Source: Terriglobia bacterium (GTDB taxonomy: Bacteria > Acidobacteriota > Terriglobia > Bryobacterales > Bryobacteraceae). Taken from it: DNA of 64,000 nt. The position numbers were made by a program, and so were the translations under genes. Under the pieces are notes generated by a model. It made no database searches. It saw only the letters and a list, made by a program, of their open reading frames with translations, and was not told where the DNA came from. Below, one piece after another: positions 5,217 through 56,934 of the stretch. How positions within the stretch are numbered: the first letter of the stretch is position 1; each line of letters opens with the position of its first letter. The stretch covers positions 62,001 through 126,000 of the forward strand of contig JANYDS010000085.1 in assembly GCA_025363475.1 (NCBI GenBank). Reading direction: 5' to 3'.

Positions 5217-8200
5217 ATGCCGATTCACATAGCGCTGAATCACAAAACCCAATACCGCTACGACCGCAAGATCAACCTCGGTCCGCAGGTCGTCCGCCTC
5301 CGCCCCGCGCCCCACTGCCGCACGCCCATCCTCTCCTACTCCTTCAAGGTCGAGCCCAAAAACCACTTCATCAACTGGCAGCAGGACCCCCAAAGCAACT
5401 ACCTCGCCCGCCTCGTCTTTCCCGAGCCCACCACTGAGCTCCTCATCGAAGTAAACCTCGTAGCCGAAATGGCGGTCTTCAACCCCTTCGACTTTTTCCT
5501 CGAACCCTACGCCGAAGAGTTCCCATTCACCTACGACGAAGCCGCCGCCCGTGAACTCCGCCCCTTCCTCGAGACCGAACTCCTCCCCGGCCCTGCACTC
5601 ACTGCCTGGCTCCAACAGGTTTCGCTGAAGCCTCTCCGTACGATGGATTTCCTGGTCGCCCTCAACCAGCGCCTCCAGGGCGATATCGGCTACGTCATCC
5701 GCATGGAACCCGGCATCCAGCCCTGCGAACAAACCCTCACCCTCCGCACCGGTTCCTGCCGCGATTCCGCTTGGCTCCTCGTCCAGATCTGCCGCCACCT
5801 CGGCCTCGCTGCCCGCTTTGTTTCCGGCTACCTGATTCAGCTCACCCCTGATCTGAAGCCCATCGAAGGTCCGCAGGGACCCGCGACTGATTTCACTGAC
5901 CTCCACGCCTGGACCGAAGTCTACCTGCCGGGCGCGGGCTGGGTCGGGCTTGACCCCACCTCTGGCCTCCTCGCCGGTGAGGGCCACATCCCGCTCGCCT
6001 GCACGCCCGACGCCAGCAGCGCCGCCCCCGTTTCCGGCGCGCTCGATGACTGCGAAACCACCTTCATTCATGAGATGTCGGTCACGCGCATTTACGAATC
6101 GCCGCGCGTTACCAAGCCCTATTCTGAAGATCAGTGGCAGGCCATCGACGCCCTCGGCCACCGCGTTGATGCCGACCTGAATACCAGCGACATTCGCCTG
6201 ACTATGGGAGGTGAACCCACCTTCGTTTCGCTCGATGACGCCAACGGTGCCGAATGGAATACCGCCGCTTTTGGCCCCACCAAACGCAAGCTCGCAATGG
6301 ACCTGTTCCGTAAGATGCGCGACCGTTTCGCCCCCGGCGCACTGCTCCACTGCGGTCAGGGCAAATGGTACCCCGGTGAACCGCTCCCCCGATGGAGCCT
6401 CGCCGCTTACTGGCGCAAAGATGGCGTGCCGGTTTGGGAAGACCAGAGCCTGCTGGGCGACAACCAGAAAACATACAACGCCAACGATTCGCGCCGCTTT
6501 CTGGAAGCCCTCACGCGCCGCCTCCAGGTCTCCGAATCGTCCGTGATGGCGGCCTATGAAGATACGTTTTACTACCTCTGGAAAGAGCGCAAGCTCCCGG
6601 CCAACGTAGACCCGCTCGACAACAAATTACAGGACCCCATCGAACGAGCCCGCGTCGCTCGCATCTTCGAACAGGAACTCGGCAAAACCATCGGTTACGT
6701 ACTCCCCCTGCGCAAACGAGGCGGCGTATGGACCAGCCAGCCGTGGTTCACAGCCTCCGAGCGCATCTTCCTGATCCCCGGCGATTCGCCCATGGGTTAC
6801 CGTCTGCCCCTCGATTCACTCCCCTGGACCACTCCCGAAGACGCCGAATACACGCTCGACTCCGACCCTTTCCAGCTCCGCGACCAGTTGCCCGCCGCGC
6901 CAGAGCGTAAACGCCATCTCTTCGCCGCACCCGCGCGTCCCGAACGTCCGCAGCCGAAGGCCAAAGCGCCCGAAAAAGGCACGTCGTCACCGTGGATCTC
7001 AAGGCCCGCCCTCTGCGTGCAGGTCCGCGAGGGCCAGCTCTGCATCTTCATGCCGCCGGTCGAGTATCTGGCCGATTATTTTGACCTCATCGCAGCTCTT
7101 GAAGATACCGCCGCGTACCTCAAAATGACGGTGCTCATCGAAGGCTACTCGCCCCCGTTCGATCCTCGCATCGGCGTCTTCAAAGTCACCCCTGACCCCG
7201 GAGTGATTGAAGTCAACATCCACCCTGCCGCCGCATGGAGCGAACTCGCCAACAACACGATTGACCTCTACGCCATGGCTCGGGCATCACGCCTCGGCAC
7301 TGAGAAATTCATGCTCGATGGCCGCCACACCGGCACCGGCGGCGGCAATCATTTCGTCATCGGTGCCGCCACGCCCGAAAACAGTGCCTTCCTGCGACGT
7401 CCCGATCTGCTCCGCAGCCTGGTCGGTTTCTGGCAGAATCATCCGTCGCTTTCGTACCTTTTCTCCGGCCTCTTCATCGGCCCCACCAGCCAGCACCCCC
7501 GCATTGATGAAGCCCGGCACGATTCGCTCTACGAACTGCAAATCGCCTTCCAGCAGGTGCCCGATACCGATGAATCCAGCCAGGACAAGCCCAACATCGC
7601 CCCCTGGCTCGTGGATCGCATCTTTCGGAACCTGCTCACCGATCTCACCGGCAACACGCACCGCACAGAAATCTGCATAGACAAGCTCTACCCGGCGGAA
7701 TCCGCCTCCTCGCGGCTCGGTCTGGTGGAACTGCGCGCCTTTGAAATGCCGCCGCACGCGCAGATGAGTCTGTCGCAACAGCTTCTGGTTCGGGCGCTGA
7801 TTTCCAAATTCTGGCGCGAGCCTTATAAGCGCGAACTCATCCCCTGGGGTACCGAACTGCATGACCGTTTCATGCTCCCGCACTTCATCCGGCTCGATTT
7901 TGAAGACGTTCTGCGCGAATCCGGCTATCCCTTTGACCCGGCCTGGTTCGCGCCCCATTTCGAATTCCGTTTCCCCCTCATCGGGGCCATCACGGCGCGC
8001 GGCATGCACCTCGAACTGCGCCATGCTTTGGAACCCTGGAACGTGCTGGGCGAAGAAGCATCCGGCGGCGGCACAGCCCGCAATGTCGATTCATCTGTGG
8101 AACGGCTCCAAATCCGCGTTTCCGGTTTCACCGGCGAGCGCTTCGCCATTCTCTGCAACGGCGTCCGCGTCCCGCTCTATCCCAGCGGCGAAAGCGGCGA

Positions 8201-52341: not shown

Positions 52342-52456
52342 CTGTCGTCAGTTTACAGTTGCGGGCCTGCCCGACGCCTGATCGTCGAAACTGCCGGACC
52401 GGGGTCCTATAATCGAGACAGCGGTGTTGCAGACCTCGGGCCGCCTCAGGAAAACT

Positions 52457-53680
52457 ATGACCAGCCGCGGGAAATTTGTAGTCGTAATGTCATCGACGGG
52501 CCTTGTGGCCCTCTTGCTGCTGGGTACAGTTGTCAGCAAGGGCGCAGCGGCGGAACCTCAGGCGACAGAGACCAGTATTTACAAGCATCTGGAAGTCTAT
52601 TCTGAAGTTCTTTCCCGCATCAAGAGCGAGTATGTGGAAGAGCCGGACATGAACAGCGTGACGCTTGGTGCGCTCAATGGTCTGCTGGAATCGATCGATC
52701 CCTATGCCAGCTATTTGAACGCCGCTCAATACAAGGAATACCTGAAGAATTTTGACTCATACCGCGGCGACCTGGGTATGGTACTCGCGAAGAAATTCGG
52801 GTACATTACGGTGGTTGCAACCGTTCCCGGATCGCCTGCAGCCAAGGCCGGTCTCACTACTGGCGACATGCTGGAATCAATCAAAGGAATTGCTACCCGT
52901 GATATGCCGCTGGCGTATGCGAAGCTGCTGCTGAAGGGTGAACCTGATTCCACTGTCGATCTTTCCGTATTGCGGCGCAAGCCGGAACCGCAGAAGCTTA
53001 CTCTTACCCGCGCTGTAGTTGTTTATCCTGCGGTGCAGTCGAAAATGCTGTCGAATAATCTTGGCTACGTCAAAGTGGAAACCATCGCGGCGGGCAAGTT
53101 GAAAGAGATTACGACCGCGGTTGCTGAGCTGCAAAAACAGGGTGCTGTAAAGCTCATTCTTGATCTGCGGAATTGCGCTTCCGGTGAACCGGAAGACGGC
53201 ATTGAACTGGCCAACCTGTTTCTGGACAAAGGCCTTATCACGTATTCACAGGGGCAGAAGTCACCGCGCAAGGATTACAATGCCGATCCAAAGAAATCGA
53301 TCACTGCGCTGCCGCTGGTGGTGATGACGAATCGTGGTACTGCCTCTGCTGCTGAACTCGCTGTTGCGGCGCTACAGGGCAATAAGCGTGCGGCAATTGT
53401 GGGTGAACGCACTTATGGCGATGCTTCGGTGCGCCGCCCCATCACGATGGATGACGGCAGCGCGATCATCCTTTCCGTTGCGAAATACTACTCGCCGGAC
53501 GGGAAATCGATTCAGGACAATGCGGTTACGCCCGAGGATCTGGTGTTGGAGCCGGAGCAGGCGGGTGCCGCTGGTGCTGACGATGATGCTGACGCTGCGC
53601 CGCAGCTTGCCGCTGGCGACAAGCCTGGTGAGGACGCCATTTTGAAGAAGGCAATCGAAGTGGCTGCGAAACGCAGCTAG
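52457..53680 (+). CDS. S41 family (CtpA-like) peptidase homologue with a broken catalytic dyad
   Basis: This 407-aa protein has an N-terminal export/anchor helix (V-V-M-S-S-T-G-L-V-A-L-L-L-L-G-T), a helical entry domain, a PDZ domain (about 105-190, A-A-K-A-G-L-T-T-G-D) and the S41 core. The serine is present in G-T-A-S-A-A-E (S297). The position 25 residues later, where CtpA has lysine in T-F-G-K-G, is aspartate (T-Y-G-D, D322), and the position 29 later, normally glutamine, is arginine (R326). So it should not be a normal serine-lysine peptidase. The stop codon TAG overlaps the TA target site of the downstream IS630-like unit. Confidence 0.85.
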   Translation: MTSRGKFVVVMSSTGLVALLLLGTVVSKGAAAEPQATETSIYKHLEVYSEVLSRIKSEYVEEPDMNSVTLGALNGLLESIDPYASYLNAAQYKEYLKNFDSYRGDLGMVLAKKFGYITVVATVPGSPAAKAGLTTGDMLESIKGIATRDMPLAYAKLLLKGEPDSTVDLSVLRRKPEPQKLTLTRAVVVYPAVQSKMLSNNLGYVKVETIAAGKLKEITTAVAELQKQGAVKLILDLRNCASGEPEDGIELANLFLDKGLITYSQGQKSPRKDYNADPKKSITALPLVVMTNRGTASAAELAVAALQGNKRAAIVGERTYGDASVRRPITMDDGSAIILSVAKYYSPDGKSIQDNAVTPEDLVLEPEQAGAAGADDDADAAPQLAAGDKPGEDAILKKAIEVAAKRS

Positions 53681-53700
53681 TGTAGTGTCCAGCAAAATAA
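53681..53700 (+). repeat. left inverted terminal repeat of the IS630-like unit
   Basis: TGTAGTGTCCAGCAAAATAA; pairs with the right end at 55116-55135 with three mismatches. The flanking TA at 53678-53679 is part of the S41 stop codon TAG. Confidence 0.75.
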
Positions 53701-53944
53701 CCACCCATATCACTCGGACTTGTATTGAGTGACTGCGCCATCTCCAGGCAGCCTTTCATAAACAGGAATACGGTAAGTCTCTGGCGGAGGCGTTTCCTCG
53801 AATGCGGAATCGATGGTTTGTGGGATGTCGTTTCGGGTAGTGGGCGAAGCTATTTGAAGCAGACCCCGAAAAGCTGTGGGGCCGCGAACAGGCTGTAGAA
53901 GACTTTGCGGGGTGGGGGAAATGTTCGTTGCGATGTGAGAGCAG
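53701..53944. other. non-coding part of the IS630-like unit
   Basis: Apart from short open frames without recognisable motifs I see no gene between the left terminal repeat and the hairpins. No piece of transposase N-terminus could be recognised here on either strand. Confidence 0.4.
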
Positions 53945-54005
53945 ACATTCTGGAAGTCCAGAATGTAAGAATAGGCGATTTGGACGCCATGTGACGTCCA
54001 AATCG
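53945..54005. repeat. two adjacent perfect hairpins downstream of the PEP-CTERM gene
   Basis: ACATTCTGGA-AG-TCCAGAATGT (53945-53966) and CGATTTGGACG-N8-CGTCCAAATCG (53976-53986 with 53995-54005) are back-to-back perfect inverted repeats of different sequence. The second ends 16 bp past the PEP-CTERM stop on the minus strand and may serve as its terminator, though no T run follows. Two such hairpins in tandem are unusual and could be a small repeat family. Confidence 0.7.
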
Positions 54006-54021
54006 TTTAGGCAGTGGGTGG

Positions 54022-54711
54022 TTAGCGGGCGATTGCCTGATTCAGGCGATTTCTGCGTTTCCCTATCAGAAGCGCCAGAATCGTCATCCCGCCGAGCATC
54101 GTAGCGACACTGGCTGGCTCAGGCGCAGTCGATTCCTGGGAGGCCCAGTTACCGGGCGTTGACGTCGAGCCACCATTATTGATGACCCGTTGCGCGAAGG
54201 ATCCGTCCAGCCCGCCGTCATAGACTACGCAGCCGGTGCAGAGTTGCTGGTTAGCGTCCGCCGTTGAGGATGAGATTTGTATGCGGGCAACTTGCCAGTC
54301 GACCGGCTTGCCGGGGACGGGATAACCGTCGTCGCTAAACACATTCCAGGAAGAAATATTTCCGCCGGCCGTTCCAAAATAGACTTTTTGCAACGAATTG
54401 CCGCTCGCCGATGACATGCCGAAGGCCCCAACAACATTCATGGACCAGGAAAGGACATGGCCCGAGTAGCTGGTCAGGGCGGAAGTGCCGGGCAGGGCAG
54501 CGTCCAGGGTAACCGATCCGGTCACGTAATTCGAACTAAGGAAGGGGATCAGATCGTTGCTGCTGCCTGTGCCGTCGGTCCGGAAGGTGCTCGGATCGAA
54601 ATTCGCGCCTGTGTACGTGTAAGTAACGGGACCGGCCTGCAAGCCCGCGCCCGATAATGCGAAAATCACTACTCCAACAACCATGCAAAGCCGTAAAATG
54701 CTCGTTTTCAT
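54022..54711 (-). CDS. PEP-CTERM sorting domain protein
   Basis: The 229-aa protein has a signal peptide (M-V-V-G-V-V-I-F-A-L-S-G-A-G-L-Q-A), a beta-rich mature domain with a cysteine pair (L-C-T-G-C) and a C-terminal PEP-CTERM sorting signal: A-P-E-P-A-S then a hydrophobic helix (M-L-G-G-M-T-I-L-A-L-L-I-G) and the basic tail K-R-R-N-R. Exosortase recognises the P-E-P motif and moves the protein to the surface or into exopolysaccharide. It lies inside the unit bounded by IS630-like repeats. No exosortase is in this window. Confidence 0.88.
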   Translation of the reverse strand: MKTSILRLCMVVGVVIFALSGAGLQAGPVTYTYTGANFDPSTFRTDGTGSSNDLIPFLSSNYVTGSVTLDAALPGTSALTSYSGHVLSWSMNVVGAFGMSSASGNSLQKVYFGTAGGNISSWNVFSDDGYPVPGKPVDWQVARIQISSSTADANQQLCTGCVVYDGGLDGSFAQRVINNGGSTSTPGNWASQESTAPEPASVATMLGGMTILALLIGKRRNRLNQAIAR

Positions 54712-54808
54712 TGCGTGTGGCCTCCGCCAAATTCTTAAAGGGTATAGAAAAGTATGAGCTTTGAGCGTAGCAGAGAGCCATGTTTTGGTGCTATCGCATG
54801 CTGTACGA

Positions 54809-55110
54809 ATGACACACGACTACAAACGTAATGGAACAGCCACCTTGTTCGCGGCTATGGAAACCTTACAAGGGAAGGTATGGGCCAGTCCCACCAAAGA
54901 CATGGGCATCAGGAAGTACTGAACCGCCTGCGCTGGCTGGACTAAAAATTAAGGGTGATGTGCCGCTGCATCTGGTGATGGACAACTACGGCCCACATAA
55001 ACATGAAAAGGTGACGGCCATTCAGGCCAAACTCTCCCGCGGCCGCCGAACTCTCGAACAGATCAGACTCGGCTGTATTCCGTCCCATAACATGCAAACT
55101 TGGGTGGCTG
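54809..55110 (+). pseudogene. remnant of an IS630-family transposase
   Basis: From 54809 the frame reads M-T-H-D-Y-K-R-N-G-T-A-T-L-F-A-A-M, the block that precedes the second catalytic aspartate region of IS630 transposases, and stops at TGA. After a frame change the next block P-L-H-L-V-M-D-N-Y-G-P-H-K-H (near 54965) is the D-N-Y segment of the DDE domain. The N-terminal helix-turn-helix part and the final E region are missing. It lies just inside the right terminal repeat and cannot be active. Confidence 0.8.
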
Positions 55111-55115
55111 CATAG

Positions 55116-55135
55116 TTATTTTCGCGGACACTACA
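55116..55135 (-). repeat. right inverted terminal repeat of the IS630-like unit
   Basis: Reverse complement TGTAGTGTCCGCGAAAATAA. Followed by T and the duplicated TA at 55137-55138. Confidence 0.75.
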
Positions 55136-55162
55136 TTAGTTTTGAAGCGTTATCCGGTCAAT

Positions 55163-55441
55163 CTACTGGATGAAACCTACCGGCTGCAGGTAGAAATGCG
55201 AACCCGCGTGGGTCTTGGTGAGGTTGTGCGTAAATTCCAGCGCCTCTGAAAACCCGATATCTTTAGCTGCCACGCCCAGCATCGTACCGTCAAATTTGTC
55301 TACTTCAACAACCTGAAAGCGCAGCGTGATGGGGTCGATAGCCCCAGCCCGCAGCGCTGAGTCGCGAATTACGTTCGGGTCGGGGGTAACCGTCCGGATG
55401 TCGTTCATGTTTAGCACCTGACTATTGGGTGCATGCGACAT
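55163..55441 (-). CDS. small protein of unknown function
   Basis: The 92-aa frame reads S-H-A-P-N-S-Q-V-L-N-M-N-D-I-R, then L-R-F-Q-V-V-E-V-D-K-F-D-G-T, then L-E-F-T-H-N-L-T-K-T-H and F-Y-L-Q-P-V-G-F at the end. It has no signal peptide or membrane helix and I do not recognise it. A GTG at 55483 would extend it by 14 residues. It is 44 bp downstream of the cyclophilin gene on the same strand, so it may belong to that operon. Confidence 0.55.
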   Translation of the reverse strand: MSHAPNSQVLNMNDIRTVTPDPNVIRDSALRAGAIDPITLRFQVVEVDKFDGTMLGVAAKDIGFSEALEFTHNLTKTHAGSHFYLQPVGFIQ

Positions 55442-55485
55442 CCGGATTGTTTCATAAAACTTTTGGATGCGGCAAAACACCACAG

Positions 55486-56100
55486 CTACATGATCTTCGC
55501 TGTCTTGATGTAATCCAAACGCGGGAATTCCTTTTCCAGGTAGGCGTTACCCTGTTTCTCGATCTGTTCCTGGTCGGGATTTTCCCGGTATTCGGGGTTA
55601 ATCTGGTCCACAAACTCCATTCCGCTGATTACTCTGCCGAACGGAGCGAACCCCATGCCGTCAAGCCGGGCATTGTCATTCAGGTTGATGAACATCTGGG
55701 AAGTGCGGGAATTCGGCTGTGAAGTTGCGGCGAAAACCAGAGTTCCGCGCGCGTTGGTCCGTTTCACGGCATCGTCTTTGATCGTGACGTTCCATTTTTT
55801 GTAGATTGCCGGATCGCCTGCCATGCCGAACTGAACTACAAAGCCAGGTACCACCCGGAAAAATCTTGCGCCGTCAAAAAAACCTGTTTTTACCAGATTA
55901 TAGAAGCGATCAGCCCCCACTGGAGCGTCAACGCGGTTCACTTCCACCACCACCGGGCCTTTCGTCAGTTCAAAAGCTGCTTTGAAGGTAGCCGGTGCCG
56001 TTTCGGTGCCGGACCCCGCCGGCTTCTGGGCCTGAATCGTCTGTGTCGAAGAGCAACTGACCATAGCAACGGCCAGCGCAAAAATTGAAAGGTTTCTCAT
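55486..56100 (-). CDS. cyclophilin-type peptidyl-prolyl isomerase lipoprotein
   Basis: This 204-aa protein has a lipoprotein-like signal (A-L-A-V-A-M-V-S-C-S-S, cysteine at about 16) and a cyclophilin domain: F-Y-N-L-V-K-T-G-F-F-D-G-A-R-F-F-R-V-V-P-G-F near 67, F-G-M-A-G-D-P near 91, S-Q-M-F-I-N-L near 133 and F-G-R-V-I-S-G-M near 153. It should assist folding of exported proteins. The ATG follows directly after the dienelactone hydrolase stop, with no gap, so it is coupled to it. Confidence 0.88.
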   Translation of the reverse strand: MRNLSIFALAVAMVSCSSTQTIQAQKPAGSGTETAPATFKAAFELTKGPVVVEVNRVDAPVGADRFYNLVKTGFFDGARFFRVVPGFVVQFGMAGDPAIYKKWNVTIKDDAVKRTNARGTLVFAATSQPNSRTSQMFINLNDNARLDGMGFAPFGRVISGMEFVDQINPEYRENPDQEQIEKQGNAYLEKEFPRLDYIKTAKIM

Positions 56101-56934
56101 TTAAACTCCTTTTTCGTGAAAAAATGTCAGCATCTTTTTCCATGCGTCACTGGCTGCGTAGTCGTTGTAACCGGGCCGGTAATCCGCGTTGAAGCCGTGC
56201 TGAGCGTCCGGGTATACATTGATATTGCCGATTTTTTCGGCGCTCACCAAACTCTCGCGCATCTGCACGACGGAATCCTGCGGGATCCCCGTATCTTTCC
56301 CGCCGTAAAACCCAATCACCGGTGCCTTGAGCTGACTCACCAGATCAATGGGGTTCTTAGGCTGAAGAGGAGTGACCGGACCCACCAGCCTGCCGTACCA
56401 GGCAGCGCTCGCCTTCAACTGATCGCTGTGTGCGGCATAAAGCCAGGCGATACGACCGCCCCAGCAGAATCCGGTCAGGGCGAGTTTTCGAGGATCGCCC
56501 TGATTCTTCGCAGCCCAGTTGGCGGTGGCATCAAGATCGGTCATCACCTGCGCATCGGGCACCTTCGCCACGATTTTGCTCATCAGTTCCTGCACGTCCG
56601 TGATCTTCGCCGGGTCACCTTCACGCGCATAGAGGGCTGGCGCGATGGCAAGATAACCGCTTTTGGAAAGACGACGGCAGAGATCCTTTATATGCTCGTG
56701 GACTCCGAAGACCTCCTGCACCACCAGGACGGTGGGAAAGAGTTTGCCTTTCGTTTCCGGCATCGCGCGATAGGCCGGTATCTTCCCGTCTGCGACAGGA
56801 ATTTCCACTTCACCCGCCACCAGGCCGCCGCTATCGGTAGTAATGGTTGCTGCAGTAACCGGAAGCACCGCTGCCGCAAAGCCCGCACTCAGCTTTGTGA
56901 TCAGAAAATCGCGGCGGTTTTGTTTCGGGTCCAT
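56101..56934 (-). CDS. exported dienelactone hydrolase family protein
   Basis: The 277-aa protein has an N-terminal twin-arginine-like signal ([16 protein letters not shown]) and an alpha/beta-hydrolase core with the nucleophile elbow G-F-C-W-G-G (cysteine nucleophile, near 155-160), D-T-G near 211 and a C-terminal histidine in A-Q-H-G-F. The cysteine in place of serine is the dienelactone hydrolase type. Substrate unknown. The gene shares one base with the arsM stop, so the two are coupled. Confidence 0.88.

Follow-up and report, generated by a model that had tools for sequence, protein, structure and literature searches.

A decayed IS630-family insertion sequence with its core probably replaced by a PEP-CTERM protein gene, at the stop codon of an S41 peptidase gene

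A single IS630-family element situated at the stop codon of an S41 peptidase gene has probably decayed in place, with its central 347 bp replaced by about 960 bp of other DNA that carries an ordinary PEP-CTERM protein gene. Overall, the locus is a one-off relic of a known kind. It lies in a 64-kb stretch of DNA, which was analysed as a whole and is termed the window; all positions are those of the window unless stated otherwise.

Results and Discussion

Structure of the relic

The features of the region are as follows; IS positions are those of the intact insertion sequence at locus L047.

52424..53680, + strand: S41 C-terminal processing peptidase gene, left neighbour (TIGR00225, E 6.7e-65; PF03572)
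53680..53701, + strand: left IS630 end (IRL), preceded by the target TA; 22 nt with 90.9% identity to each of the two ends of the intact L047 element
53736..53848, + strand: transposase N-terminal remnant (IS 194-306); 75% DNA identity to L047, E 6e-15, and 58% protein identity
53849..54808, no strand: non-IS DNA, about 960 bp, in place of IS 307-653; delimited by alignment breakpoints, with no second copy in the genome
53945..53966, - strand: second hairpin after the PEP-CTERM gene, with a 9-bp stem; z -4.4 against shuffles
53976..54005, - strand: terminator-like hairpin after the PEP-CTERM gene; z -5.4 against shuffles
54022..54711, - strand: PEP-CTERM protein gene, 229 aa, intact open reading frame; GGAGG about 10 nt before the ATG; marginal TIGR02595 match
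54809..55019, + strand: transposase catalytic-region remnant (IS 654-866, THDYKRNG to DNYGPHKHEKVTA), frame-broken; 71% DNA identity, E 1.5e-22
55018..55136, + strand: C-terminal tail of the transposase followed by the right IS630 end, starting at IS 1081; 74% DNA identity to L047, E 6e-15
55115-55136, + strand: right inverted repeat (IRR), followed by the target TA

The sequences at 53677-53701 and 55115-55139 form the two arms of an inverted repeat of 25 nt, with 84% complementarity (21/25 nt). About 0.002 such repeat pairs are expected by chance, by a simple binomial estimate over all position pairs of a 2-kb region. With up to 3 mismatches allowed, the end pattern occurs at these two places only in the window, where shuffled sequences give an expectation of 0.03. 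The enclosed unit, 53680-55136, is 1457 bp long; the matching ends and the extent of the unit thus agree with the first-pass annotation. A TA dinucleotide is present on the left (53678-53679) and on the right (55137-55138), as at both ends of IS630-family elements. The TA target duplication that had been proposed holds as far as the TA on both sides, and the duplication itself is putative.

Important is that the S41 stop codon and the target TA overlap. In the TAG at 53678-53680, the first two bases are the target TA and the G is where the element begins; the insertion for this reason did no harm to the S41 gene.

Remnants of the transposase are found between the repeats. A tblastn search with the L047 transposase gave matches at 53728-53871, 54809-54880, 54954-55019 and 55011-55076, all on the + strand and in order, with E values of 4e-17 and 2e-12 for the fragments. 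At the DNA level three parts of the IS are kept (IS 194-306 at 75% identity, 654-866 at 71% and 1081-1204 at 74%), and these are collinear and without overlap. IS 867-1080 is deleted, and the distance from the left end to IS 194 is about 34 bp, compared with about 170 in the intact IS. It should be noted that the breakpoints are traceable only as far as an identity of 71-75% can be followed. The transposase reading frames are broken. Against NF033545, the model for IS630 transposases with a cut-off of 100, the right fragment by itself reaches 17.3 bits. Homology to IS630 transposases is therefore present in the form of fragments, and the ordered remnants with their broken frames bear out the decayed transposase that had been suggested inside the repeats. 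To judge from these frames, the transposase of the relic is dead.

The relic resembles the IS630 family in its terminal inverted repeats, flanking TA and ordered transposase remnants. It differs from the family in the dead transposase and in the core, which appears to have been swapped for the PEP-CTERM gene.

Intact relatives and other relics

Terminal inverted repeats of the window type are shared with intact members of the family. Two intact relatives from the same genus, L047 in genome G012 and L048 in G015, are about 1.2 kb long and have stop-to-stop frames of 385 and 387 aa, respectively; with 258 bits on NF033545, the L047 protein is well above the same cut-off of 100. Intact relatives that have the window-type ends are L047/L053 and L048/L054. 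The ends are CTAGTGTAGTGTCC, with CTAGTGTAGTGTCT in L048. As these same-genus relatives show, the repeats in the window are true IS630 ends, and members of the relic's IS630 group evidently persist in the genus.

With the right transposase fragment as query, matches were obtained in 5 of 41 genomes and no match was found in plasmid sequences. The transposase of the intact relative matched 2157 plasmid records; among the best 15 of these 2157, the best matches listed are Rhodococcus elements, one of them ISRjo2, with about 60% protein identity.

There are six IS630 matches in the genome that carries the relic. An intact-looking IS630 on contig C27 (L038) was considered as the cognate element and was rejected, as its ends differ. 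The genome also has another decayed IS630 of this group (L039, G000:C51 160816-164015), near the end of the relic's own contig. Its left end is TAGTGTAGTGTCC, a divergence that hides it from the search pattern, and its right end was not found.

Another relic of the same IS630 group is present in genome G009 (L052). Its left end is followed directly by IS 666, with a loss of about 620 bp, and internal loss thus occurs in this group. The G009 relic (L052 6662-7205) lies upstream of an unrelated PEP-CTERM-like gene (5704-6414), at a distance of 247 bp. This locus was considered as a second case of a PEP-CTERM gene inside an IS630 and was rejected: no right end with up to 6 mismatches is found beyond the open reading frame, and the gene is a neighbour of the relic and is not enclosed by it. 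No NCBIfam model matched this open reading frame.

The PEP-CTERM gene

The protein encoded within the unit has an N-terminal hydrophobic stretch and, at the C-terminus, an APEP motif, a hydrophobic stretch and a basic tail (APEPASVATMLGGMTILALLIGKRR), as do PEP-CTERM/exosortase surface proteins. The genome has one exosortase match (PF09721, E 3.9e-72). The TIGR02595 match is marginal, with 15.2 bits by hmmscan and 17.1 bits in the genome search at a cut-off of 16. In the genome search, 20 matches to TIGR02595 are over the cut-off, including the enclosed gene, and one more is below it. The protein is unremarkable when compared with usual PEP-CTERM/exosortase proteins and differs from these in location only. 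The gene has a GC3 of 0.664, in line with the values of 0.61-0.68 for nine genes around it.

The gene had been described as intact and with hairpins of its own, and both points stand, with a 229-aa open reading frame and two stable hairpins downstream. A plain scan for terminator-like sites found 2 in the region, which is no excess over shuffles (1.7).

Weak homologues of the enclosed protein are found in 3 other genomes of the 41 (G002, G018 and G012). A three-row profile of the protein has matches in 13 of the 41 genomes, among them the sources of its rows (the own genome, G002 and G018). No close homologue was found in the own genome, in 40 relatives or in 395 other genomes of a phylum sample. 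A search of plasmid sequences with the protein gave no match.

The locus in related genomes

The S41 gene is present in 38 of the 41 genomes and in 17 of the 18 of the same genus. For 15 of these 17 same-genus loci, the sequence examined extends beyond 1 kb downstream of S41; no homologue of the PEP-CTERM gene is found there, and a six-frame search of the same 15 loci for a PEP motif with a basic tail, which does recover the window gene, found none. Thus the PEP-CTERM gene was not seen at this place without the repeats, an arrangement that would have spoken against the unit proposed in the first-pass annotation. The genes that come next in the window (hyp106, PPI and DLH) were not found near S41, in up to 1.5 kb on each side, at any of 29 other S41 loci. 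No clean empty site was found among the relatives' S41 loci; none is readable, because none of the relatives examined has the window's right-hand genes behind S41. Several relatives have a common acyltransferase-like open reading frame behind S41. When window positions 55140-56934 are compared with loci L007-L024, the genes behind S41 differ; the region next to the element has thus been rearranged in this lineage.

These loci bear on the number of IS copies. The PEP-CTERM gene may instead be flanked by two IS630 copies in the same orientation, in a composite-like arrangement or by chance, each of which would have lost its inner part. We consider this improbable. It requires two insertions and two deletions that happen to leave collinear and non-overlapping parts, and a native PEP-CTERM gene at the site was not seen at any of the 15 same-genus loci. 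However the outer TA comes with any IS630 insertion and does not require a single copy, and relics that lack one end do exist, in G009 and in the own genome. ISY100 is described as inserting almost exclusively into TA, with duplication of the TA (account in PMC2170065). Since TA is expected of every IS630 insertion, the outer TA does not help to decide between a single copy whose core was replaced and two copies that lost their inner ends. By simple geometry (our own estimate), the lack of overlap between the remnants raises the odds of one copy against two by a factor of only about 2, and this is counted against the preferred reading. One copy is preferred for its economy, and the two arrangements are not firmly separated.

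Search for other copies and for passengers

The 1457-bp unit is single-copy in the genome, and a strict form of the end pattern matched the window site only among the 41 genomes. A looser form gave 53 matches in 6 of the 41 genomes, of which 42 are in G005; with the pattern reversed as a control, the only match was one in G005. It should be noted that the pattern counts are lower bounds: the intact copies L054 (G015) and L174 (G003) came to light through similarity, and their ends are missed by the looser pattern. In the own genome, a 96%-complete assembly, no further place fits the end pattern.

The search for partner ends covered 54 loci (two of which overlap others), namely all matches outside the own genome and related IS copies. 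A partner could lie up to 4 kb away and have at most 3 mismatches. Paired ends were found in 13 cases. Three of these are IS630 elements with a transposase, about 1.19-1.21 kb long, in G012, G015 and G003, and the remaining 10 enclose 102-132 bp (7 in G005, 2 in G008 and 1 in G001). None of the 13 pairs is of passenger size; a partner end that differs by more than 3 mismatches would have escaped this search. For about 24 more ends, a contig edge no more than 350 bp away hides the interior. Of the 16 unpaired-end loci that were viewed closely, 13 have the hairpin motif known from the short elements; L170, L172 and L173 are without it.

The short elements are MITE-like, 102-132 bp long and with IS630-type ends. 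They are found at L137 (647-770), L139, L140, L145, L150, L151 and L158 in G005, L161 and L163 in G008, and L171 in G001. G005 has many copies of the short elements as well as unpaired ends that bear the GCGACT/AGTCGC hairpin motif. The window unit has in common with MITEs the same type of end and the lack of a working transposase, and differs from the MITE-like elements of the relatives in its length and in being single.

Window-type ends, with up to 2 mismatches, were found in the DNA examined around none of 20 other PEP-CTERM loci of the own genome and none of 19 related loci in relatives. One of the own loci, L071, shows a weak match of 28% to the transposase. A scan of GTDB contigs with the end pattern gave two loci, each with a single end and no exact partner in the DNA examined, and these were taken as chance matches. 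The same ends, then, were not seen around other genes in the genome or in relatives, where paired ends hold an IS630 or 102-132 bp.

Transporter IS elements (tIS), which carry passenger genes, are an established class as presented in PMC9330008, and the window unit is like these in having a gene unrelated to transposition between IS ends. Capture of the PEP-CTERM gene between a pair of IS630 ends might have happened at another place, from which a transposase acting in trans would have moved the 1457-bp unit to its present site. Both ends and the TA are well preserved although the transposase is dead, the short elements in relatives suggest that such ends alone can be moved, and the PEP-CTERM gene carries its own signals. 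This origin is nonetheless distinctly improbable. For a transporter IS, several copies or an empty site next to an occupied one would be expected; here there is one copy, with no sign that the unit has moved. No passenger-sized pair was detected in the 54 loci, a result to be read with the ends at contig edges, the more divergent partners and the unexplained L170, L172 and L173 in mind; the 20 and 19 PEP-CTERM loci lack the ends, and no other place in the own genome fits the pattern. No working transposase was found for the unit, either in cis or, as a cognate enzyme, in trans: its own is non-functional, and the intact-looking IS630 on C27 has other ends; the assembly is 96% complete, and a past or unassembled source could have supplied one. 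The suggestion in the first-pass annotation that the gene is a passenger, by which surface proteins are spread, is not supported by these counts. Very doubtful is the view that the locus is a transporter-type IS630 derivative which carried a whole PEP-CTERM transcription unit and was mobile as a non-autonomous element of 1457 bp; this would be a rare route for the shuffling of surface-protein genes. In the literature library that was searched, no work was found that joins PEP-CTERM, insertion sequence and passenger, and none that joins PEP-CTERM, exosortase and Acidobacteria.

Proposed origin of the locus

Under the preferred reading of one decayed IS630 with a replaced core, an IS630-family element would have inserted at the TA within the S41 stop codon, with the stop retained. 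The copy would then have decayed by internal deletions and broken frames, and its central 347 bp would have been exchanged for the approximately 960 bp with the PEP-CTERM gene on the opposite strand, along with a ribosome-binding site and terminator-like hairpins of its own. The likeliest route may be an ectopic capture into, or an illegitimate insertion in, an element that was dead and harmless. In mariner-like and P elements, a broken core can be filled through faulty gap repair, and as an example, offered as a guess, the filler could have been copied in by faulty repair of a gap in the IS. Expression of the gene probably relies on its own signals, and the exosortase of the genome probably handles the product.

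In favour of this reading we count the ends with TA, the intact relatives, the collinear and non-overlapping remnants, the internal loss in G009 and the single copy, and also the contents of the paired ends elsewhere (IS630 or 102-132 bp), the 20 PEP-CTERM matches with the exosortase, and a GC3 like that of the neighbours. Against it is the completeness of the enclosed unit, in which the gene, ribosome-binding site and hairpins are tidier than random filler. Also counted against it are the lack of a close homologue that could point to a donor, breakpoints that can be followed only at 71-75% identity, and a scan of the region in which no sigma-70-like promoter was found.

If the unit had moved, a surface-protein gene would have been carried by an IS630-type element. 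As it stands, the relic serves mainly as an illustration that a gene framed by inverted repeats and TA is not on that ground alone shown to be a passenger.
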